DNA of 64,000 nt from Taibaiella sp. (lineage in GTDB: Bacteria; Bacteroidota; Bacteroidia; Chitinophagales; Chitinophagaceae): the NCBI GenBank assembly GCA_019638495.1, contig JAHBTQ010000002.1, positions 682,001-746,000 of the forward strand, written 5' to 3'. The notes beneath the pieces are model-generated. The model did no database searches. It was not told the origin of the DNA and was given only the letters and a program-made list of their open reading frames with translations. Below, in pieces: positions 20,450 through 29,076 of the stretch (its first letter is position 1; every line of letters starts with the position of its first letter). The translations under genes were made by a program, and so were the position numbers.

Positions 20450-21415
20450 TTACGGATAATACTGGATCAATGTCCAGTATAATGGCAGACCCATAGTAAT
20501 ATTGAACGGGAACGTAATACCAAGAGCCATTGGCACATACAGCCCGGGATCAGCACCGGGCACAGCCTGTTTCATGGCAGCGGGCACAGCAATGTAGGAT
20601 GCACTGGCGCAAAGGATGGCAACCAACAAGCGATCGCCGGCAGCCAGGCCAAGCAGGTGGGTGACAAAAATACTAGCGATAGCGTTCACCAGCGGGACCG
20701 CAACTGCAAATGCGGTCATGCTAAGTCCATATCGTGAAAAGGACTTGAACCGTCTTGCAGCCACCATGCCCATTTCAAGTAAGAAAATCGACAAGAATCC
20801 TTTAAAAATGTCTGTAGTAAACGGTCTGATTCCTTCTGCTCCTTTAGAGTTGGCAAGCAATCCTATCACAAGGCTGCCGGAAATAATAAACACCGAACCA
20901 TTAGTTACAGACTCGTGTAGTAGTTTCCCGAATTTGGTATTTGATGTGCCATCTCCGAAGTGTCTTATCAGCACCACTCCAATTATGATGGCTGGCGCCT
21001 CCATCAAAGCCATGGCAGCAACCATATGCCCGCCGTAAGCAGCACCTGCAGTATCCAGAAACAGTGTTGCGGTTACAAAGGTAACAGCACTAACAGAGCC
21101 ATAAGTAGCGGCTATAGCACCTGCATTCTCTACTCCTACTTTCCGCTTCAGTATAAAGAAAGCATATAGTGGCACCAATGCAGCAAAGGAAATACAAACC
21201 AGAAGCGTACTAACGATCTCAGTGGTAAATCCACTGCACCGTAGCTCCTGTCCGCCTTTAAAACCAATGGCAAAAAGCAGGTAAAGGGAAATGAATTTGG
21301 ACGTAGTCGGAGGAATTTCGAGGTCACTTTTCACCAATGTCGCCACCACACCCAATACAAAAAACAAGAGCGTAGGATTGGTTGCATTCTCAACCAGCAG
21401 ATTATTTACTGTCAT
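20450..21415 (-). CDS. sbtA: SbtA-type sodium-dependent bicarbonate permease
   Basis: A 321-aa inner-membrane protein with about ten helices in two inverted halves. Recognisable SbtA/DUF897 segments are TLLFFVLGVVATLVKSDLEI, FISLYLLFAIGFKGGQEL, AATYGSVSAVTFVTA and MEAPAIIIGVVLI (first half), and SGSLVIGLLAN and YIAVPAAMKQAVPGADPGLY (second half). Cyanobacterial SbtA imports Na+ and HCO3-. No SbtB-like PII gene is seen beside it. It is the last gene of a six-gene minus-strand unit and overlaps the end of tsaC by 14 bp, so the two are probably coupled. Transport of bicarbonate is inferred from the family. Confidence 0.88.
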   Translation of the reverse strand: MTVNNLLVENATNPTLLFFVLGVVATLVKSDLEIPPTTSKFISLYLLFAIGFKGGQELRCSGFTTEIVSTLLVCISFAALVPLYAFFILKRKVGVENAGAIAATYGSVSAVTFVTATLFLDTAGAAYGGHMVAAMALMEAPAIIIGVVLIRHFGDGTSNTKFGKLLHESVTNGSVFIISGSLVIGLLANSKGAEGIRPFTTDIFKGFLSIFLLEMGMVAARRFKSFSRYGLSMTAFAVAVPLVNAIASIFVTHLLGLAAGDRLLVAILCASASYIAVPAAMKQAVPGADPGLYVPMALGITFPFNITMGLPLYWTLIQYYP

Positions 21416-22409
21416 TATGAGTGTTGTTTCTTTTTAGGAAGTTGTCGTATTTGTGCCCGTATGCCGCACGCTCCAATCTATCGTTTAATGCTACCCCTAC
21501 TCCTTTATCCGGAAATAGCTTTACAATTATCAATTCATACCCGCGCACATCCATGTCGTGCATGGCTGCATAAAGGTGCTTTGCAGCCGTCTCATCATCT
21601 CCGGTAGCGCTGAGAACTATCTGCTGTTCGCGTGGCAACGTTCCACAATAACCATCAAAGGTTATTATACCGACACGCACCGGGAGCAGGGCTGCCATTT
21701 CCTGGTCGGGATCATCAACAAGTTTAAGAGGCGTGCGCGGGCTATAATGACTTAATGCCATGCCCGGTGCCAATATCTTGGTGCCGGAGTGGATCCTAAC
21801 ATTGCCGGCAACCTGCAATATCTGCTCACGGGTAACAACTCCATGTCTCAGTATTACCGGTACTTCACCATCAAACCCCACGATTGTGGACTCTATCCCT
21901 GCGCTACACGGACCACCATCCAGTATATAGCTTACCTTATTGCCAAGTGTCTCCCAGACATGTGCTGCAGTAGTTGGGCTAATATACCCCGACGGATTGG
22001 CGCTCGGTGCGGCGAGCGGTAATCCCGCTTCCTGAAGCAACTGCCGCGCCATGGAATGTGCCGGCACCCTTATAGCTACTGTATCTCTGCCTGCGGTTAC
22101 AACGTCAGGTACCCCAACAGCCCTGGGTAAAACAACCGTAAGAGGCCCGGGACAAAATGCAGCTATAAGTCGTTCGGCCGTCAGTGGCATTTCAGCAACA
22201 TACCGCCCTATTTGCTCTGTATCTGCTACGTGTACAATAAGCGGATTATTAGAGGGCCTGCCTTTTACCTCGTAGATACGCCGCACCGCACCGGCATCAA
22301 GTGCATTTGCTGCTAGTCCATAAACCGTTTCTGTGGGCATTGCCACGAGTTTCCCTTCTTGCAACAGTCTGGCAGCAATACTCACATCTGCCCCAATTCT
22401 ATCATTCAT
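21402..22409 (-). CDS. tsaC: L-threonylcarbamoyladenylate synthase (Sua5/TsaC type with C-terminal Sua5 domain)
   Basis: A 335-aa enzyme that makes threonylcarbamoyl-AMP from threonine, ATP and bicarbonate for the tRNA t6A37 modification. The YrdC domain (about 5-200) shows MPTETVYGLAANA, IVHVADTEQI, and APSANPSGYISPTTAAHV. The Sua5 C-terminal domain (about 230-320) follows a linker with LAPGMALSHYSPRTPL. The ATG at 22409 is chosen over a GTG 13 codons upstream because it gives the usual start just before the YrdC domain and avoids overlap with the gene upstream. It sits 19 bp after the DUF6671 gene and overlaps sbtA by 14 bp. Confidence 0.93.
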   Translation of the reverse strand: MNDRIGADVSIAARLLQEGKLVAMPTETVYGLAANALDAGAVRRIYEVKGRPSNNPLIVHVADTEQIGRYVAEMPLTAERLIAAFCPGPLTVVLPRAVGVPDVVTAGRDTVAIRVPAHSMARQLLQEAGLPLAAPSANPSGYISPTTAAHVWETLGNKVSYILDGGPCSAGIESTIVGFDGEVPVILRHGVVTREQILQVAGNVRIHSGTKILAPGMALSHYSPRTPLKLVDDPDQEMAALLPVRVGIITFDGYCGTLPREQQIVLSATGDDETAAKHLYAAMHDMDVRGYELIIVKLFPDKGVGVALNDRLERAAYGHKYDNFLKRNNTHNDSK

Positions 22410-22428
22410 TTCCAAACCGCTTTTTAAT

Positions 22429-23277
22429 TCAGGGATTGCACCTGTCACAATACATTGCCGATTCTACAGTCTTATGGTGAGGGAAGTACTCTTCTTCTTC
22501 ATATCCGCATTCCATACAGCCCCACAGATACGAGAGGGTACTCCTTGTCGGTGCTTTACACAGTTCGCAGGGAAGTCCGGGTTTGGCCTCTTTCACTTCA
22601 TAGCCCGGCGCTGCGCACATTGGGCATAGTTGGTTCATAGTAATAGTGAGACGCTCCGTAGCAGAAGCGATCGCCGCCATCCTGGTCGGATTATACATTG
22701 CCCTCATATCCGTCTCTACAAATACCTGCCCGTACCGGCTCAGAAGATTTTTTGCAGCGAGTGCCAGCTGCGACCAGTCACAAATACCCTTTACCATTTC
22801 ATCGTTTGCGCCAGCCGCCTTTCTTACGATCAATGCATGAGACGGGAATAGCGCTTGGGCTGCAAAATCTTGTACCTCCTCCCAGGTATGCAACAATGTA
22901 CCTCTGAAATTTGTTTTTGTAGTAAGCTCTCTTGCTTTGTACTCACGTCCTCGCTCAAAGTCTATCAACACTACCAGCTCATCATCGGACGGGATAAAGA
23001 AAACCCCGGGATGTGGTCCGAAGGAACCTTCGCTCGCTACGATCAGAGAACAACCTGTATGTTCGGCTGCTGCACTGCATTTCATTCTCGCAGTTTCCAA
23101 AGGGTCCTTCGGACGTAACACCTCCCCGCTAAATGTTCCAAACCTATCCGTATCAAATCCCGCGGGCAGAATGATACGCACGCCTAGTTCACGCTCCAGA
23201 ACGGGGGCCATAACCGTTTCTTTTCCGTGCATGGTGGCGATAACGAGATCGCGGCCTGCAAATATGGATGGATTCAC
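22429..23277 (-). CDS. DUF6671 family protein with four CxxC motifs
   Basis: A 282-aa cytoplasmic protein of unknown function. The N-terminal half contains GRDLVIATMHGKETVMAPVL and later IVASEGSFGPHPGVFFIPSD and TNFRGTLLHTWEEVQDFAAQ, conserved features of DUF6671 proteins. The C-terminal 60 residues hold four CxxC pairs (CPMC, CELC, CMEC, CDRC) that look like two zinc ribbons. The start is a GTG at 23277; no good ATG fits. The gene is 15 bp after the 90-aa gene and 19 bp before tsaC. The family call is from memory of its N-terminal pattern; the function is not known. Confidence 0.75.
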   Translation of the reverse strand: MNPSIFAGRDLVIATMHGKETVMAPVLERELGVRIILPAGFDTDRFGTFSGEVLRPKDPLETARMKCSAAAEHTGCSLIVASEGSFGPHPGVFFIPSDDELVVLIDFERGREYKARELTTKTNFRGTLLHTWEEVQDFAAQALFPSHALIVRKAAGANDEMVKGICDWSQLALAAKNLLSRYGQVFVETDMRAMYNPTRMAAIASATERLTITMNQLCPMCAAPGYEVKEAKPGLPCELCKAPTRSTLSYLWGCMECGYEEEEYFPHHKTVESAMYCDRCNP

Positions 23278-23292
23278 AAAGAGTCTTTCCTG

Positions 23293-23565
23293 CTAATTGT
23301 GGTCCTGCGGTTCGCAATATTCCAGAGAGAGGCTGGCCACCAGCTTTACCCTCCCATTGCCTCCCCGCCTCAGTAACTGACTCATGCCTCGTAGCTGCCC
23401 ACTGATATCAGAAAGCGTTCTCTCAGATTGTTCTATGTCTTCTTCCGAATCGCTGGCCTTGTCGATCTTGCCTATCTGAAACTCAGTTGGCACATCAAAA
23501 AGTCTTGAAAGTAGTTGCTCAGCTTCTGTAACAGAGTACTGTCCGCTTAATAGTGTAGATTCCAT
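23293..23565 (-). CDS. 90-aa cytoplasmic protein, function unknown
   Basis: A small soluble protein, start MESTLLSGQYSVTEAEQLLS, with a charged helical middle (about 35-60, many Ser/Asp/Glu) and a C-terminal beta part KLVASLSLEYCE. The ATG at 23565 is used; the frame opens 18 codons upstream inside the icd 3' end. It lies 16 bp after icd and 15 bp before the DUF6671 gene. It resembles short helical hypotheticals common in Bacteroidota, but I cannot name a family. It is not a PII-like (SbtB) protein: no T-loop or PII core motif is seen. Confidence 0.65.
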   Translation of the reverse strand: MESTLLSGQYSVTEAEQLLSRLFDVPTEFQIGKIDKASDSEEDIEQSERTLSDISGQLRGMSQLLRRGGNGRVKLVASLSLEYCEPQDHN

Positions 23566-23581
23566 GATTGCTTTTTTTTGG

Positions 23582-25078
23582 TTATTGACCCTGGCCCGCG
23601 CTGAATGTCTGTTTACCATCCATCAGGTAGAGATTCTCTGTTTTTATCACTTCCAGCGACCGGTTGTGAATGCGCTGCAGCAGGTCCACAACAGCCTGGT
23701 AGCTTACTCCTTGCTGAGGATCGTTCGTAAAGCGGCAGCGCCAGTGATCTGTGCAGAAAGTCTCTGGGAACCCGTTTGGCCACACTTTTGTCCCCCGGTT
23801 TGTGATCATCTTCAGGCGCATCCCGGCCGATTCTATTCCGGCTAGCTTAGCGGCCAGTTGTTCCGGGTCACGCTCGCTGAAGTGCAGGAAAACATCTACA
23901 CCAACCAGTTCCTTGACCGCTTGCTTTGTCGGTGTGATTGTTACATTAATACTCTTGTTGCCTTTGGAATAGTCCACTGCTGGAAGATTTTCCGGTTTCA
24001 ACCCCAGGCGATCAATCACAGAGTCTGCAAATTCTTGCGTACCAACACGCGCTTTCGATACTCCTGCATCATAGATGTCTGCAGTATGGATTCCATCCTC
24101 CATCGTGCGCAACCATGCGTTGTGTATCTTCTCGGCAATGTCTGCCTGCTTTATATGAACCAGCATCTGCACAGCCGCAAGCAGTAGACCTGAGGGGTTA
24201 GCTTTTCCCTTACCTGCCAGGTCAGGTGCAGAGCCATGAATTGCCTCAAACATCGCAAAACCATCTCCTATGTTCGCACTTCCACCAAGGCCCACCGACC
24301 CTGTGATCTGCGCAGCTACATCGCTTAGGATATCACCATACAGGTTGGGCATTACTATTACATCAAACGCCTCGGGAGTCTCCGCCAGGCGGGCAGCACC
24401 TATATCTACTATGCAGTGTTCCTTTTCTATCTCCGGGTACTCAGTTCCTACCTCGTCAAACACTTTGTGAAAAAGACCATCGGTCATCTTCATGATGTTG
24501 TCCTTTGTAAAGCATGTTACCTTCTTTCGGCCATATACCTTTGCATATTCAAAGGCATACCTGATTATCCGCTCTGTGCCGGGTCTGGATATCAGCTTCA
24601 GGCATTGAATTACTTCGTCAGTTTGCTGATGTTCTATCCCCGCATACAGGTCTTCCTCATTTTCCCTCACTATTACCACATCCATCACCGGGTGTTTTGT
24701 AGATACGTATGGATAATAGGATACGCAAGGCCTTACATTGGCAAAAAGACCAAGCACTTTGCGCGTAGTTACATTCAGACTCTTGTAACCACCACCTTGC
24801 GGCGTAGTGATAGGTGCTTTCAGGAACACGCGGGTCCTCCTTAATGAATCCCACGCTTCCTGGCCAATACCCGACGTGTTGCCCGACAGGTAAACAGACT
24901 CTCCGATACTGATCTCCTCAATATCCAGGCGCGCCCCGGCCGCTTCCAGCACCTTCAATGTTGCTTTCATTATTTCCGGACCTATCCCATCACCATAGGC
25001 CACCGTAATTGCTGTCGACGCCGACTGCCTGATCTTTACTTCGGGCTCTTGCCCGTAACTTACAATTGTGTTTGTCAT
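23582..25078 (-). CDS. icd: NADP-type isocitrate dehydrogenase (long Thermus-like form)
   Basis: A 498-aa TCA-cycle enzyme that oxidises isocitrate to 2-oxoglutarate and CO2. The dehydrogenase core (about 22-350) has TVAYGDGIGPEIMKATLKVL, ENEEDLYAGIEH, and the metal-binding DVIVMPNLYGDILSDVAAQI segment, plus EAIHGSAPDLAGKGKANPSG near the NADP site. A C-terminal extension of about 140 residues follows. That length and extension match the Thermus thermophilus form (496 aa) used in many Bacteroidota, rather than the 416-aa E. coli form. It sits 76 bp downstream of the PurK-like gene and 16 bp upstream of the 90-aa gene. Confidence 0.93.
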   Translation of the reverse strand: MTNTIVSYGQEPEVKIRQSASTAITVAYGDGIGPEIMKATLKVLEAAGARLDIEEISIGESVYLSGNTSGIGQEAWDSLRRTRVFLKAPITTPQGGGYKSLNVTTRKVLGLFANVRPCVSYYPYVSTKHPVMDVVIVRENEEDLYAGIEHQQTDEVIQCLKLISRPGTERIIRYAFEYAKVYGRKKVTCFTKDNIMKMTDGLFHKVFDEVGTEYPEIEKEHCIVDIGAARLAETPEAFDVIVMPNLYGDILSDVAAQITGSVGLGGSANIGDGFAMFEAIHGSAPDLAGKGKANPSGLLLAAVQMLVHIKQADIAEKIHNAWLRTMEDGIHTADIYDAGVSKARVGTQEFADSVIDRLGLKPENLPAVDYSKGNKSINVTITPTKQAVKELVGVDVFLHFSERDPEQLAAKLAGIESAGMRLKMITNRGTKVWPNGFPETFCTDHWRCRFTNDPQQGVSYQAVVDLLQRIHNRSLEVIKTENLYLMDGKQTFSAGQGQ

Positions 25079-25154
25079 ATTTATTTGGTTTTATTTTATT
25101 ATACGTTACTTGATCTTTCAGTGCACTCTTGTCGCCATTTGTCCCGCTAGAGTG

Positions 25155-26270
25155 CTAATCGTGACCTAAAAGGTATTTTATCACTACTGTCTTCGAAACG
25201 TGCTCCTCTATCTCCAGTTCAGTTGCTGGGAATGGCGGATTCCTCCGGCCTGATTTCGCCACTCCGCCCGGACTGAAACCACTTGTACAAAGCAATTCCT
25301 TCAAGGCCTCATTTACCACATACTTTTTGTGCGCCATCAATTCCGGAATGTCCAATACAGCCTGCTGCCTGTTTTGCTGCTCATTCATTTTGTCAATCCC
25401 CAACACGTTACGAAGCTGTCGTTCCAGCCTGGTGTTCGTGCCTTCGTTTTGTGTGGGTAGGCTGAGCTGGTTAGCGCGCAAGCCTATCTCGTTCACATAC
25501 AGCTTTTCATTACCGGCAACTATCACTTCAACGCATATCGTACCCACCAGTCTTAATGCTCCTGCAACCCTCGAGGCCAGCATCATTGCGCTCATAGCTA
25601 CTTCCCGGGCTATCCGTCCGGGGCACAACCGGAAGTCTGTCAACATCCTGTCTCTCTGTGCTATCAGCAGCCCGGGTCCATAGCATTCCACAAAGCCGGA
25701 TTCGTTCCTTGATACCGTGATAAGCAACTCCTTTTTCATTTCCAGCGTTGCTTCCTGTTGCAGAAAATTTCCTCCCTCCGTTCCTATCGCCTCAACTGTG
25801 TGAAGCTTGAGGCAACCATTTTTGCTATCCATTGTATCGACACGACTACGTGCATCATCATGTTCCTCATCAAGAGCGGTCAGTTCCTGGGGATTTGTAA
25901 CAACCAATCCTTTTACCACGGGTAACCTCAAGGCCTCCATCTGATCTTTCTGAAGAAATTTATCTTGAATGAGTGCAACCGTTTCGGGGTCCGGGTATGT
26001 CTTTACACCCATTTCACAAAGCCTATTCAAGCCCTCCAAGTTCGTCGCTTCCTCTGCTATGGCTACAACGTCCATCTGCCTTCCGAACGCCACAACATCA
26101 TCAAAACTTGATGGATCCCCCTTAACGTACTGTTCTCTGCCTGCGGCTATTCCTGCAGGTTCTTGAACACCCATCACAGTGACGTCTAGTCCCGCCTCAA
26201 CAGACATTTTCATCAAACGGCATACAACCTCACTACTGCCTATTATTCCGATTCTGAGATTGTCAAGCAT
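25155..26270 (-). CDS. PurK-like ATP-grasp paralogue with lost active-site motifs
   Basis: A 371-aa protein aligned by eye along its whole length with the true PurK at 27949-29076. Shared backbone: LDNLRIGIIG, KGDPSSFDDVVAFGRQMDVV, YPDPETVALIQDKFLQK, then FRLCPGRI, and EKLYVNEIGLRANQ. Key motifs are changed: GGGQLGAML is [19 protein letters not shown] is VDTMDSKNGC, and [13 protein letters not shown] is EIGLRANQLSLPT. The terminal GHITV element is missing. It is therefore unlikely to carboxylate AIR. It may be a sensor or scaffold that still binds a ligand. It is the first gene of the six-gene unit and diverges from lysR, with 236 bp between. Confidence 0.85.
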   Translation of the reverse strand: MLDNLRIGIIGSSEVVCRLMKMSVEAGLDVTVMGVQEPAGIAAGREQYVKGDPSSFDDVVAFGRQMDVVAIAEEATNLEGLNRLCEMGVKTYPDPETVALIQDKFLQKDQMEALRLPVVKGLVVTNPQELTALDEEHDDARSRVDTMDSKNGCLKLHTVEAIGTEGGNFLQQEATLEMKKELLITVSRNESGFVECYGPGLLIAQRDRMLTDFRLCPGRIAREVAMSAMMLASRVAGALRLVGTICVEVIVAGNEKLYVNEIGLRANQLSLPTQNEGTNTRLERQLRNVLGIDKMNEQQNRQQAVLDIPELMAHKKYVVNEALKELLCTSGFSPGGVAKSGRRNPPFPATELEIEEHVSKTVVIKYLLGHD

Positions 26271-26293
26271 GTGATCGCCTTTGTTTTACGGTG

Positions 26294-26301
26294 CAAATAT
26301 G
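26294..26301 (-). promoter_or_regulatory. -7-like box of the PurK-like/icd/sbtA unit
   Basis: CATATTTG on the minus strand, 7 of 8 to TAnnTTTG, 23 nt before the ATG at 26270. The inverted-repeat operator begins 4 bp upstream of it. Confidence 0.4.
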
Positions 26302-26304
26302 AGT

Positions 26305-26372
26305 CGCTAAATACATAATCTAACATTTAACTTTGCAATGTTTTCCATAAACATAGTTTATGTATTTTAGCG
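26305..26372. promoter_or_regulatory. Nested inverted repeats with LysR T-N11-A box between lysR and the PurK-like gene
   Basis: Two nested dyads fill the divergent space. The inner one is CATAAAC-ATA-GTTTATG at 26346-26362 and contains TAAACATAGTTTA, a T-N11-A LysR-type core (26348-26360). The outer arms are CGCTAAATACATA (26305-26317) and TATGTATTTTAGCG (26359-26372), complementary with one extra T. The layout fits a LysR tetramer contacting two sites upstream of the -7 box at 26294-26301. The role is inferred from layout. Confidence 0.55.
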
Positions 26373-26468
26373 AATCTATCACCAGTAAAGGGTTTCACTT
26401 ACAGCGCGCAACTGAAAAAATTTGTCAAAAAGCTGTCTTGAGAACGCCAAGATCGAGAAACATCAGCT

Positions 26469-26476
26469 TAACTTTA
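26469..26476 (+). promoter_or_regulatory. -7-like box of lysR
   Basis: TAACTTTA, 7 of 8 to TAnnTTTG, 30 nt before the ATG at 26507. Confidence 0.3.
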
Positions 26477-26506
26477 TGCCTGACAGCATATTCATAACCC
26501 TTTTTT

Positions 26507-27430
26507 ATGAATTACACACTCAATCAACTCAAGGTATTTTTAAAGGTTACACAGCTCGGCAGTGTCACCAAAGCGGCAGACGAACTGCACCTTACGCAGC
26601 CCGCAGTGTCAATTCAACTTCGGAATTTTCAGGAGCAATTCGATATACCATTAACAGAGGTAGTAGGTCGGCAGCTTTTCGTTACTGACTTTGGCAGAGA
26701 AGTTGCAACTGCTGCCGAGCAAATACTGGAAGGAGTGAACGCGCTCAACTTTAAGACACACGCTCATAAAGGCCAGCTCACAGGCCGGCTTAAGATCTCA
26801 ATTGTTTCTACCGGGAAATATGTGATGCCTCACTTCCTCACAGACTTCATGCGCGAGAACCCGGGCGTTGAACTTTCGATGGATGTAACAAACAAGGCCA
26901 AGGTGCTCGAAAGCCTGGAAAATAATGAAGTAGACTTCTCACTTGTGTCTCTGCTGCCCGACGCCATGGCACTGGAACACGTAAAACTGATGCAAAACAA
27001 GCTTTTTCTGGTTGCAAGCCGCGACTTTGAGTTGACAAAACCCGCCTATAACATATCCATATTAGAGAAGCTGCCGGTCATATTCCGGGAGCAGGGTTCC
27101 GGCACCAGGGTCGTTATGGAGCATTTCCTCAGGGAGCATAAAATTGCCGTCCAGAAAAAGCTGGAGCTAACGTCTAATGAAGCTGTGAAACAAGCTGTGG
27201 TAGCCGGGCTCGGCGTGTCCATCATGCCGTTGATAGGCATAAAAAATGAGCTCGGCAACGGCGAGCTCCAAATAATCCCTGTTAAGAAATTACCGCTAAA
27301 AACAAATTGGCACCTTATATGGCAAAAAGGCAAAAAGTTCTCCGCCGCCGCCGCTACATACCTCGCCTTCATCAGGAAAGAGAAGGATAATATTATCCAC
27401 AACCGCTTCCAGTGGTTCGAGGGGTATTAG
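26507..27430 (+). CDS. LysR-type transcriptional regulator (CbbR/CmpR-like)
   Basis: A 307-aa regulator. Residues 1-62 are the winged helix (LNQLKVFLKVTQLGSVTKAA, LTQPAVSIQLRNFQEQF). Residues 92-300 are the periplasmic-binding-protein-like effector domain, with LKISIVSTGKYVMPHFLTDF and VVAGLGVSIMPLIGI. By eye it is closest to the CbbR/CmpR branch, whose members control CO2 fixation and bicarbonate uptake genes. It diverges from the PurK-like/icd/sbtA unit across a 236-bp region with a LysR box, so it very likely regulates that unit. It converges on purE with a 27-bp gap. Confidence 0.92.
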   Translation: MNYTLNQLKVFLKVTQLGSVTKAADELHLTQPAVSIQLRNFQEQFDIPLTEVVGRQLFVTDFGREVATAAEQILEGVNALNFKTHAHKGQLTGRLKISIVSTGKYVMPHFLTDFMRENPGVELSMDVTNKAKVLESLENNEVDFSLVSLLPDAMALEHVKLMQNKLFLVASRDFELTKPAYNISILEKLPVIFREQGSGTRVVMEHFLREHKIAVQKKLELTSNEAVKQAVVAGLGVSIMPLIGIKNELGNGELQIIPVKKLPLKTNWHLIWQKGKKFSAAAATYLAFIRKEKDNIIHNRFQWFEGY

Positions 27431-27457
27431 GCAGCAATACAGCCCTTATCAGGAGAT

Positions 27458-27949
27458 CTACATATCCTTCAGCAGTCCTTCATTCTGCTTGTTCACCTTC
27501 TCCCTGTTGGCAGCCTTGAGCGCTTTCAGCTTTTCGCGGAGGCTTTCGTCACCCACAGATAATATCTGGGCAGCCAGTACACCGGCATTGTGAGCGCCGT
27601 CTATAGCCACCGTAGCCACAGGCACATCAGACGGCATCTGCACTATAGACAGGAGCGAATCAAGCCCGTTCATAGAGTGTGTAGACTTAATAGGCACACC
27701 TATCACAGGCACCTCACTCAGTGCTGCCATCATGCCCGGCAAGTGTGCAGCCCCACCGGCACCGGCTATTACCACCGCTATCTGGCGCTCAGCCAGAGAC
27801 GCCGCATATTCATACATCCATTGCGGACTGCGATGTGCAGACACTACCATAAACTCATAAGGTATGCCAAACGACGCCAGCACCTTTGCTGCCGCCTGCA
27901 TGGTGGGCGCGTCAGATGAGCTACCCATTATTATTCCTACTTTCTTCAT
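27458..27949 (-). CDS. purE: N5-carboxyaminoimidazole ribonucleotide mutase
   Basis: A 163-aa class I PurE that converts N5-CAIR to CAIR in purine synthesis. It shows [20 protein letters not shown] (5-24), the catalytic [15 protein letters not shown] loop with its His (about 43), [16 protein letters not shown] (about 70-85), and [20 protein letters not shown]. Its ATG shares one base with the purK stop (TAATG), so the pair is coupled. Confidence 0.97.
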
Positions 27950-29076
27950 TAGTGTTCGTTTAATGCCTTCTTGATAATTAATGACCTTGCAATGGCATCT
28001 TCGCGCCGGGCATCAGTCACCGTTATATGGCCCATCTTCCTGCCCGGCTTGCCTCCTTGCTTGCCATACCAGTGCATGTGCACATCGCCCGCCCGCACCA
28101 TTTCCTTAAGCGCGTGCGTATATGCGGCTTTGTGTTGCGCAGCAGGCTCTATCAGGTTCAGCATCACCGATGCGCGCGTTGTTTGTGCGCTGCCCGGTGG
28201 CAGCCCTAGTATCAGGCGCGCCTGCTGCTCAAATTGGGAGGTAGCCGCCGCTTCTATAGTGTGGTGGCCGCTATTATGGGCACGTGGCGCCAGCTCGTTC
28301 ACATATATTTTTCCGGCCTGGTCTATAAACATCTCCACAGCCATTATACCGGTAAGGTTCATTGCAGTGGCCACCTTCCTGGCCAGGTCACTTGCCTCCG
28401 CTACCGCCGCATCATTCAGTCCCGCAGGACATACCTGGAAGTCGAGCAGGTTCAGGGCCGGGTCAAACTCCATCAGCACAGGATCATACACTTCCATATT
28501 TCCTGCAGCATCGCGCGCTACTATCACAGATATTTCCTTTTCCAGTTTTATCTTCTCCTCCAGCACACTGGGCTCGTCAAATGCTGTTTCCATATCAGCT
28601 ACGCTATTCAGCATCTGCACGCCCTTGCCATCATATCCGGCTCTGCACTTCTTCAGGCACGCAGGCAGCCTGTCTGCATATTGTCTCAGTTCGGCACGGT
28701 TGTTTACCAGCACACCACTTACCACCGGTATGCCGTGCGCCTGCATAAACTGCTTCTGCACATATTTGTCCTGTATTGTCTCTATCGTGTGTGGCGAGGG
28801 ATATACCTTCTTCCCCATTTCGGCCAGCGCCTTCAGGGCATCGGTATTTACAGCTTCCATTTCTATGGTCACCACATCCAGTTCCTTGCCAAAGGCCATA
28901 ACATCATCATAGCTCATGGGGTCGCCCACCTTAAATGACGCAGTATAGCGTGCGCAGGGGGCATTCTTGTCCTTGTCCAGCACCGCCACATCCAGGCCAT
29001 AGTCTATCGCATACCGCAGCAGCATGGCGCCAAGCTGGCCGCCGCCCAGTATCCCTATTTTCACGTTATCAAACAT
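27949..29076 (-). CDS. purK: N5-carboxyaminoimidazole ribonucleotide synthase
   Basis: A 375-aa ATP-grasp enzyme that makes N5-CAIR from AIR, ATP and bicarbonate. Active-site motifs are intact: [12 protein letters not shown] (about 7-18), [14 protein letters not shown] (about 141-154), [17 protein letters not shown], and [19 protein letters not shown] (about 266-284), followed by the C-terminal KMGHITV element. The ATG at 29076 is used; the frame opens two codons upstream with TTG. It is coupled to purE and is the functional counterpart of the degenerate paralogue at 25155. Confidence 0.97.

Follow-up and report, generated by a model that had tools for sequence, protein, structure and literature searches.

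A LysR-type regulator and a conserved predicted operator facing a candidate bicarbonate-supply operon in Taibaiella sp., a bacterium in which RuBisCO was not detected

Bicarbonate is required for purines, pyrimidines, fatty acids, anaplerosis and the N6-threonylcarbamoyladenosine (t6A) modification of tRNA, and to our knowledge dedicated regulation of its supply has been described mainly in autotrophs. CcmR/NdhR of Synechocystis, a cyanobacterial regulator tied to ribulose-1,5-bisphosphate carboxylase/oxygenase (RuBisCO) and to 2-phosphoglycolate (2-PG), controls high-affinity inorganic-carbon uptake genes with 2-oxoglutarate as effector (PMC3401165, PMC13249358), the effect of 2-oxoglutarate being co-repression (PMC3401165). 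CmpR is encoded divergently next to a bicarbonate transport operon (PMC13249358). Reports also exist on inorganic-carbon transport in non-autotrophs. MpsABC/DabAB of Staphylococcus aureus is needed for growth in air, with no dedicated regulator seen in the available part of the report (PMC6689103). A putative Na+-dependent bicarbonate transporter and a carbonic anhydrase have been reported from the proteorhodopsin-bearing Bacteroidetes Polaribacter MED152 and Schleiferia, the accessible portion of that source describing neither a regulator nor an icd/tsaC operon (PMC4148732). The present analysis concerns positions 20450 to 29076 of a 64,000-nucleotide stretch of the Taibaiella sp. genome (hereafter the window; contig JAHBTQ010000002.1, positions 682,001 to 746,000). 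Here, in a genome in which RuBisCO was not detected, sequence comparison points to an operon that probably secures bicarbonate and is transcribed away from a lysR gene, with a conserved predicted operator between the two.

The locus shares with CcmR/NdhR the LysR subfamily, with CmpR the divergent position next to bicarbonate transport genes, and with MpsABC/DabAB inorganic-carbon transport in a probably non-autotrophic setting; it differs from each of them. Relative to the CcmR/NdhR regulon the set adds icd, tsaC, purKE and DUF6671, and the NdhR motif ATAG-N8-CTAT (PMC13249358) stands against CATAAA-N5-TTTATG in this operator. Unlike the systems of CmpR and CbbR in autotrophs, the transporter is SbtA, DabAB or SulP and not CmpABCD, and a RuBisCO client, as served by a CO2-concentrating mechanism, did not appear: a search of the own genome (12 contigs, 4.42 Mb) that covered the RuBisCO large subunit family PF00016 only gave zero matches. 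Unlike MpsABC/DabAB, a LysR and a DNA element here tie DabAB or SbtA to icd and other genes. Among the matches listed by a literature search that covered few subscription papers, no such regulon was found by title and beginning of abstract, and the search returned no paper mentioning DUF6671. Together, LysR, operator and gene set make up a new version of the CbbR/CmpR/NdhR type of system.

The lysR gene (26507..27430, plus strand) encodes a protein with the LysR fold, carrying an HTH_1 domain and a LysR substrate domain (E 9.2e-45). Its closest solved relatives are 5y2v (200 bits) and 5y2w, deposited as 'Rubisco operon transcriptional regulator', and CmpR (5z49), which bears out the CbbR/CmpR-type assignment of an earlier note on this DNA. 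We take 5y2v and 5y2w to be NdhR. Their residues also agree with the numbering in PMC13249358. The top NCBIfam match is to CbbR (NF045990), but its 197.6 bits fall short of the cut-off of 450, so the protein is a CbbR relative and not CbbR proper. Facing lysR are six packed minus-strand genes, whose order and gaps (76, 16, 15, 19 and -14 bp), as given in the earlier note, match the coordinates of the open reading frames (ORFs). The first, a PurK-like ORF (25155..26270, minus strand), matches PurK models weakly. The second, icd (23582..25078, minus strand), encodes a predicted isocitrate dehydrogenase, an enzyme that releases CO2 and forms 2-oxoglutarate; it carries Iso_dh (E 8.7e-96) and the bacterial ICDH C-domain, passes the NF006673 equivalog cut-off (782.7 bits against 509) and has 2d1c as a solved relative. 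A small regulon protein of 90 residues (23293..23565, minus strand; a longer alternative start is also in the ORF list) is followed by a DUF6671 protein (22429..23277, minus strand; PF20376, E 1.2e-76). The gene tsaC/Sua5 (21402..22409, minus strand) encodes a predicted threonylcarbamoyl-AMP (TC-AMP) synthase, a user of bicarbonate, with Sua5_yciO_yrdC (PF01300, E 2.2e-60), Sua5_C (PF03481) and a score over the TIGR00057 equivalog cut-off (214.6 against 123.2); its start was taken as the ATG at 22409, in keeping with the gap in the earlier note, and the ORF list holds a longer GTG start at 22448. The last gene, sbtA (20450..21415, minus strand), encodes a predicted Na+-dependent bicarbonate transporter in which the Sbt_1 domain (PF05982, E 4.9e-114) spans residues 14-318 and profile positions 1-308 of 308, hence its full length. 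Synechocystis SbtA (7cye) is the sole solved structure related to it.

The conserved predicted operator of LysR has a 50-bp core (26312..26361, plus strand) with a score of 43, or 38.1 when left out of training. It lies inside the divergent region, within the stretch 26305-26372 that the earlier note had named for a footprint. Upstream of lysR in most relatives the same pattern recurs at fixed spacing, namely CAAAnnT, 10 nt, and then ATTcATAaATTTTTATTTATATTTntaATgnnnnnCATAAAnnnnnTTTATG, and in most of them the final ATG of the element is the start of lysR. In the window the lysR ORF begins about 145 bp past the operator core; the offset is similar at a relative locus, L047 (loci are designated by L numbers and genomes by G numbers), where a second, weak site (score 10.4) lies at the lysR start. 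The consensus of the promoter -7 box is TAnnTTTG, and CAAAnnT, the reverse complement of AnnTTTG, is in register at 27 of the 30 training sites. A TAnnTTTG-like putative -7 box of the divergent operon, CATATTTG, is placed at 26294..26301 on the minus strand by its position and by this register, and a putative lysR -7 box fitting TAnnTTTG, TAACTTTG, lies inside the operator (26328..26335, plus strand). The dyad CATAAA-N5-TTTATG (26346..26362) follows the T-N11-A rule of LysR recognition and is the likely recognition half. A longer inverted repeat frames the operator, with TCGCTAAATACATAA at 26304-26318 and TTATGTATTTTAGCGA at 26358-26373.

The matrix was trained on 30 sites next to lysR, including one near-identical pair (L081, L083). 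There were 35 seed-matched upstream sites, from which five had been removed before training (the paralog L090_6, L101, L102, L104 and L106); L049, L089, L099 and L105 did not reach the seed threshold, and the L094 stretch stops at lysR. Scores of at least 12 were found at 34 of 39 lysR loci, those below being L089, L094 (contig end), L099, L104 and L105. When each locus was left out in turn, 28 of the 30 training sites scored above 25 and the remaining two 9.6 and 6.8. One simulation of 962 kb under a first-order Markov model gave a single match of at least 8 (8.8).

The gene set was followed in relatives with SbtA and LysR as anchors, the PurK-like gene being too rare for this purpose; a neighbourhood search anchored on the latter found no related loci. 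SbtA is present in 25 of 195 family genomes, and its neighbourhoods were obtained from 23 of the 24 others (G131, with a 3-kb contig, L107, was left out). They hold a LysR ortholog in 12 cases, icd in 8, purK with purE in 5, tsaC in 5 and DUF6671 in 3. Across the phylum, 30 of 395 genomes carry a LysR ortholog (E<=1e-80). In its surroundings, read over up to 20 kb and in some cases cut off by a contig boundary, SbtA was found 12 times, icd 10, DabA 7, DUF6671 7, tsaC 5 and SulP once, the small protein being the commonest partner (19/30). At least one gene of the set is near LysR in 27 of the 30; the LysR loci without any are L094 (contig end), L104 and L105. Given a 0.5% chance per 20-kb stretch, and with kinship ignored, the counts have probabilities of 2e-20 for SbtA, 3e-16 for icd and 1e-10 for DabA. 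Chance alone would put DabA and LysR together in 2.2 genomes, and they were found together in 12 (p 8e-8). The fullest layout was seen at L047, where lysR faces purK-purE-icd-small-DUF6671-tsaC-sbtA, probably the older arrangement; at L028, of the same genus, lysR faces purK-purE-icd-sbtA. A beta-carbonic anhydrase gene lies between lysR and sbtA at L043 and L050. An amidohydrolase, dihydroorotase-like by our reading, joins the set at L038, L046 and L087. At L041 (G089) the cluster icd-purK-purE-small-tsaC-sbtA stands in a stretch with neither lysR nor the element, and its icd differs (40% identity), which indicates that the gene set stays together independently of LysR. Overall, lysR, sbtA, icd, tsaC, DUF6671 and the small ORF recur jointly, as a check proposed in the earlier note had asked, and this recurrence together with the conserved 50-bp element argues for a gene order beyond chance.

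Several side observations were made at these loci. Parts of an export cluster (ABC transporter, HlyD, TolC, sometimes TetR) lie near sbtA or dabBA at L030, L036, L041, L042, L045, L046, L048, L085 and L092, and parts of such a cluster (ABC/HlyD/TolC) lie beyond the element that faces lysR at L142 and L144. Split genes were seen for lysR at L049 (7686-8605) and for sbtA at L046 (9356-10301) and L107, and reflect either assembly error or decay.

The transporter near LysR belongs to one of three unrelated families (SbtA, DabAB, SulP) in 20 of the 30 genomes, and the filling of one slot by unrelated transporters is the strongest sign of inorganic carbon as the common theme. The occurrence of the same LysR and the same DNA site beside them suggests that the set likely maintains bicarbonate when CO2 is scarce. 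The same transporters could in principle serve Na+, pH or membrane-potential homeostasis, with LysR sensing pH or sodium. Transport by SbtA and by BicA/SulP is Na+-coupled and depends on membrane potential (PMC12628692, PMC6689103), and MpsAB was initially linked to membrane potential (PMC6689103). Such a role leaves tsaC, purK-purE and beta-carbonic anhydrase in the set unexplained, mpsAB complements a carbonic anhydrase mutant of Escherichia coli (PMC6689103), and the nearest relatives of the LysR are inorganic-carbon regulators. We regard it as very improbable.

Element sites that had no part in training bear on whether LysR acts beyond its own promoter. Such sites were found before the small gene (L029), icd (L038, L046), sbtA without lysR (L039), a beta-carbonic anhydrase gene (L050) and dabBA with the small gene (L085). 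A pattern scan of 30 whole genomes, picked mostly for carrying lysR or sbtA, found the pattern 45 times, spread over 25 of the genomes, and the reversed pattern 13 times. All 18 matches outside the fetched loci were inspected. Seven are strong (score >=34), and all seven adjoin icd (five) or another lysR (three, one of which also adjoins icd). The strong sites precede icd without such a lysR alongside at L140, L143, L145 and L146; at L141 the site lies between another lysR and icd, and at L142 and L144 it separates lysR from a short ORF resembling the small protein, L144 being some 5 kb away from L046. The 11 weak matches adjoin no gene of the set, save for a tsaC-like stretch of 30% identity 3.3 kb away in L241; nine of them were scanned at a threshold of 0 (best 5.5), and L147 and L148 fell below a threshold of 12. 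The element also precedes icd at L206, with no adjoining lysR. In 20 further stretches upstream of dabA, a strong element was found in L186 only (41.3), from a lysR-positive genome with its lysR elsewhere; L187-L189 carry weak variants (13.7-18.5) beside LysR proteins of 37-39% identity.

These sites were set against the simpler possibility of ordinary clustering, in which LysR controls its own divergent operon alone and the element is shared promoter architecture. The own genome holds exactly one match to the element with up to two mismatches allowed, putative -7 boxes lie within the element, the divergent LysR layout is common, and the element is missing from many of the dabA and sbtA loci. 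Yet the element stands without an adjoining lysR before icd (L038, L046, L140, L143, L145, L146, L206), sbtA (L039), dabBA (L085, L186) and carbonic anhydrase (L050), and the Markov and reversed-pattern controls give far fewer matches, so that ordinary clustering appears quite improbable.

The likely signal of LysR was approached through the effector residues of 37 orthologs, the paralog L090_6 and short LysR pieces being excluded. Y105, S224 and N225 are reported as residues of the 2-oxoglutarate interface of NdhR (PMC13249358); a lysine is printed there as 'Lys10', which we read as K104, the counterpart of CmpR Lys106. In NdhR numbering these interface residues for 2-oxoglutarate or ribulose-1,5-bisphosphate (RuBP) are kept nearly throughout (K104 36/37, Y105 36/37, S224 35/37, N225 36/37). 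In the 2-PG cleft, T102, N164, R195 and T201 are kept in all 37, T101 is replaced by S in 37, H130 by K in 36 and R in 1, and R267 by T in 21, S in 15 and N in 1. Since the 2-oxoglutarate-binding residues are kept and two 2-PG-binding ones, H130 and R267, have given way to K and T/S, and since no RuBisCO was detected as a source of 2-PG and icd is a frequent neighbour, 2-oxoglutarate, the product of Icd, is inferred to be the best candidate signal.

The same residues are compatible with a regulon directed mainly at the tricarboxylic acid (TCA) cycle, with 2-oxoglutarate or citrate reporting the balance of carbon and nitrogen, icd at its centre and bicarbonate transport as a secondary, anaplerotic arm. 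In line with such a regulon, icd directly faces lysR at L033, L044, L082, L084, L088-L091 and L098, and it accounts for five of the seven strong sites outside the fetched loci. Against it, no icd was found in the fetched stretch of the seven dab loci or at L029, L035, L040, L086, L101 and L102, and tsaC and purK-purE, which use bicarbonate, lack a direct connection to the TCA cycle. Its absence near L029 is softened by the icd elsewhere in that genome (G008), which has an element of its own (L143). A regulon centred on icd is somewhat unlikely in our estimation, and bicarbonate supply is the reading that we prefer.

Several results weigh against that preferred reading. The counts of neighbours come from related genomes and hence are non-independent. 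In lysR-positive genomes the element precedes 11 of 25 icd genes, and in lysR-negative ones 0 of 10 (p 0.01); seven of the 11 are lysR-adjacent training sites, and their removal leaves 4 of 18 and 0 of 10, respectively (p 0.15). Of the control genes, eight belong to a lower-scoring icd type and two to the high-scoring one. This comparison is less telling than it first seems, and our confidence was reduced a little on its account. The element is absent from 16 of the 20 further dabA stretches, four of them in lysR-positive genomes (L190, L195, L196, L199), and eight of the 23 SbtA neighbourhoods, some on short contigs, have neither lysR nor element (L030, L032, L034, L036, L037, L041, L042, L045); thus LysR is not the owner of every sbtA or dabA. 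The own genome has two beta-carbonic anhydrase genes elsewhere, and the element is absent from both loci (L108, L109), which removes them as regulon members. Finally, CmpR binds RuBP at the same interface as that for 2-oxoglutarate (PMC13249358).

The PurK-like protein had been counted as a bicarbonate enzyme in the earlier note, and this is not supported. It scores 76.1 bits where the NCBIfam purK cut-off is 318.4, and 77 bits where that of a further PurK model is 326. It retains 30 of the 62 columns invariant in 13 true PurKs (relatives P0002 and P0003 each retain 27) and has lost G149, Y150, D151, G152, H269, N270, G272, H273, K341 and H352, so that little is left of the Gly-rich loop GYDGKG, of HNSGH or of the C-terminal MGH. 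With its active-site motifs decayed, the protein should not be counted as a user of bicarbonate and, going by these residues, probably does not use it. The group comprises three proteins, the window copy and two relatives (72% and 46%), out of 6726 candidates that were scored from a collection of 5.8 billion proteins, and in a tree the trio lies on a long branch that joins the purKs of the family, with support that is not strong. The true genes are purE (27458..27949, minus strand; AIRC domain, over the TIGR01162 cut-off), tail-to-tail with lysR, and purK (27949..29076, minus strand; ATP-grasp and PurK_C, over the TIGR01161 cut-off). Their counterparts head the operon in L028 and L047. The most likely history is that purK-purE came to lie across lysR and that the PurK-like protein, a decayed PurK paralog kept as a pseudoenzyme, then took the place of purK as first gene. 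As for the true purE-purK of the window, their convergent position, given in the earlier note, was found as described, and membership of the regulon here was ruled out by the single genome-wide match to the element, which lies elsewhere.

As to the remaining partners, homologs of the small protein were found in 25 of 50 loci by clustering, and three remoter members were aligned (L029, L041, L095). It has no Pfam or NCBIfam match, and none of its relatives scored above a cut-off. Its predicted fold is beta-alpha-alpha-alpha-beta (predicted local distance difference test, pLDDT, 89), with no match among PDB folds at E<=0.001. It probably serves as a shared regulatory partner in many of the variants. 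Two divergent copies occur in one operon at L038 (1960-2493), L098 (12024-12544) and L141 (7473-8237), and could point to a heteromer. A second small ORF of 60-94 residues, by eye a short membrane protein, adjoins the small regulon protein at L081 (8958-9206), L087 (8963-9178), L092 (10860-11084), L095 (9002-9286), L106 (8877-9125), L141 (7729-7914) and L145 (7569-7751); the one copy tested (L106) had no Pfam match. DUF6671 carries four invariant CxxC pairs near the C-terminus, resembling a zinc ribbon, and its model (pLDDT 90.5) has a predicted ITPase/YjjX-like fold, the best Foldseek match being YjjX (1u14, E 6.6e-5, TM 0.34 by query length). It adjoins tsaC in the window and at L038, L046, L047, L081, L083, L084 and L087, and occurs without tsaC at L085, L093 and L145. 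From the likeness of the model to YjjX and ITPases, our guess is that it may cleave a nucleotide near TC-AMP. In human mitochondria the bicarbonate Km is 13 mM for TC-AMP synthesis and 31 mM for t6A synthesis (PMC5951830), and by analogy TsaC would be a reasonable first casualty of low bicarbonate. Proteins of a further group, g16 (168-195 residues), were seen beside sbtA, icd or lysR at L033 (9356-9916), L049 (6980-7486), L090 (12207-12755), L104 (452-1039) and L145 (8018-8575). Their resemblance to carbonic anhydrase is weak both by Pfam (Pro_CA, E 0.065) and by hhalign (probability 15%); in the weak profile alignment the invariant C13 and C70 lie near the zinc cysteines of beta-carbonic anhydrase, and g16 is possibly a degenerate carbonic anhydrase.

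Taken together, the proposal of the earlier note of a CO2 or bicarbonate regulon is well supported by genome organisation and less completely at the level of cis-regulation, and it loses the PurK-like protein and the own purE-purK as members. In the proposed mechanism LysR would bind the element at 26312-26361, in response to a central metabolite reporting the state of carboxylation or of the TCA cycle, with 2-oxoglutarate the best candidate. The distal half of the operator, just upstream of the putative -7 box of the operon, would serve activation, and the proximal CATAAA-N5-TTTATG half, which covers the lysR start in most relatives, would serve autocontrol. In the operon, SbtA would import bicarbonate and Icd release CO2, and the presence of TsaC probably reflects a reaction that is one of the earliest to fail as bicarbonate falls. 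In other lineages the same LysR and element are found next to DabAB or SulP instead of SbtA, or beside beta-carbonic anhydrase, icd alone or purK-purE. A wider version, in which a 2-oxoglutarate-reading LysR drives interchangeable transporters (SbtA, DabAB, SulP), CO2-releasing Icd, and TsaC and PurK/PurE as the housekeeping reactions soonest short of bicarbonate, in a phylum-wide, RuBisCO-independent CO2 homeostasis, with the small protein as a regulatory subunit shared by the transporters and the PurK pseudoenzyme kept here as a sensor or subunit, is a tentative and rather doubtful extension.

The locus offers a regulator defined by sequence, with a predicted operator and a gene set probably for bicarbonate supply, in an organism where RuBisCO is undetected. 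It would implicate TsaC and Icd in the response to low CO2, and may link DUF6671 and the small protein family to CO2 physiology.

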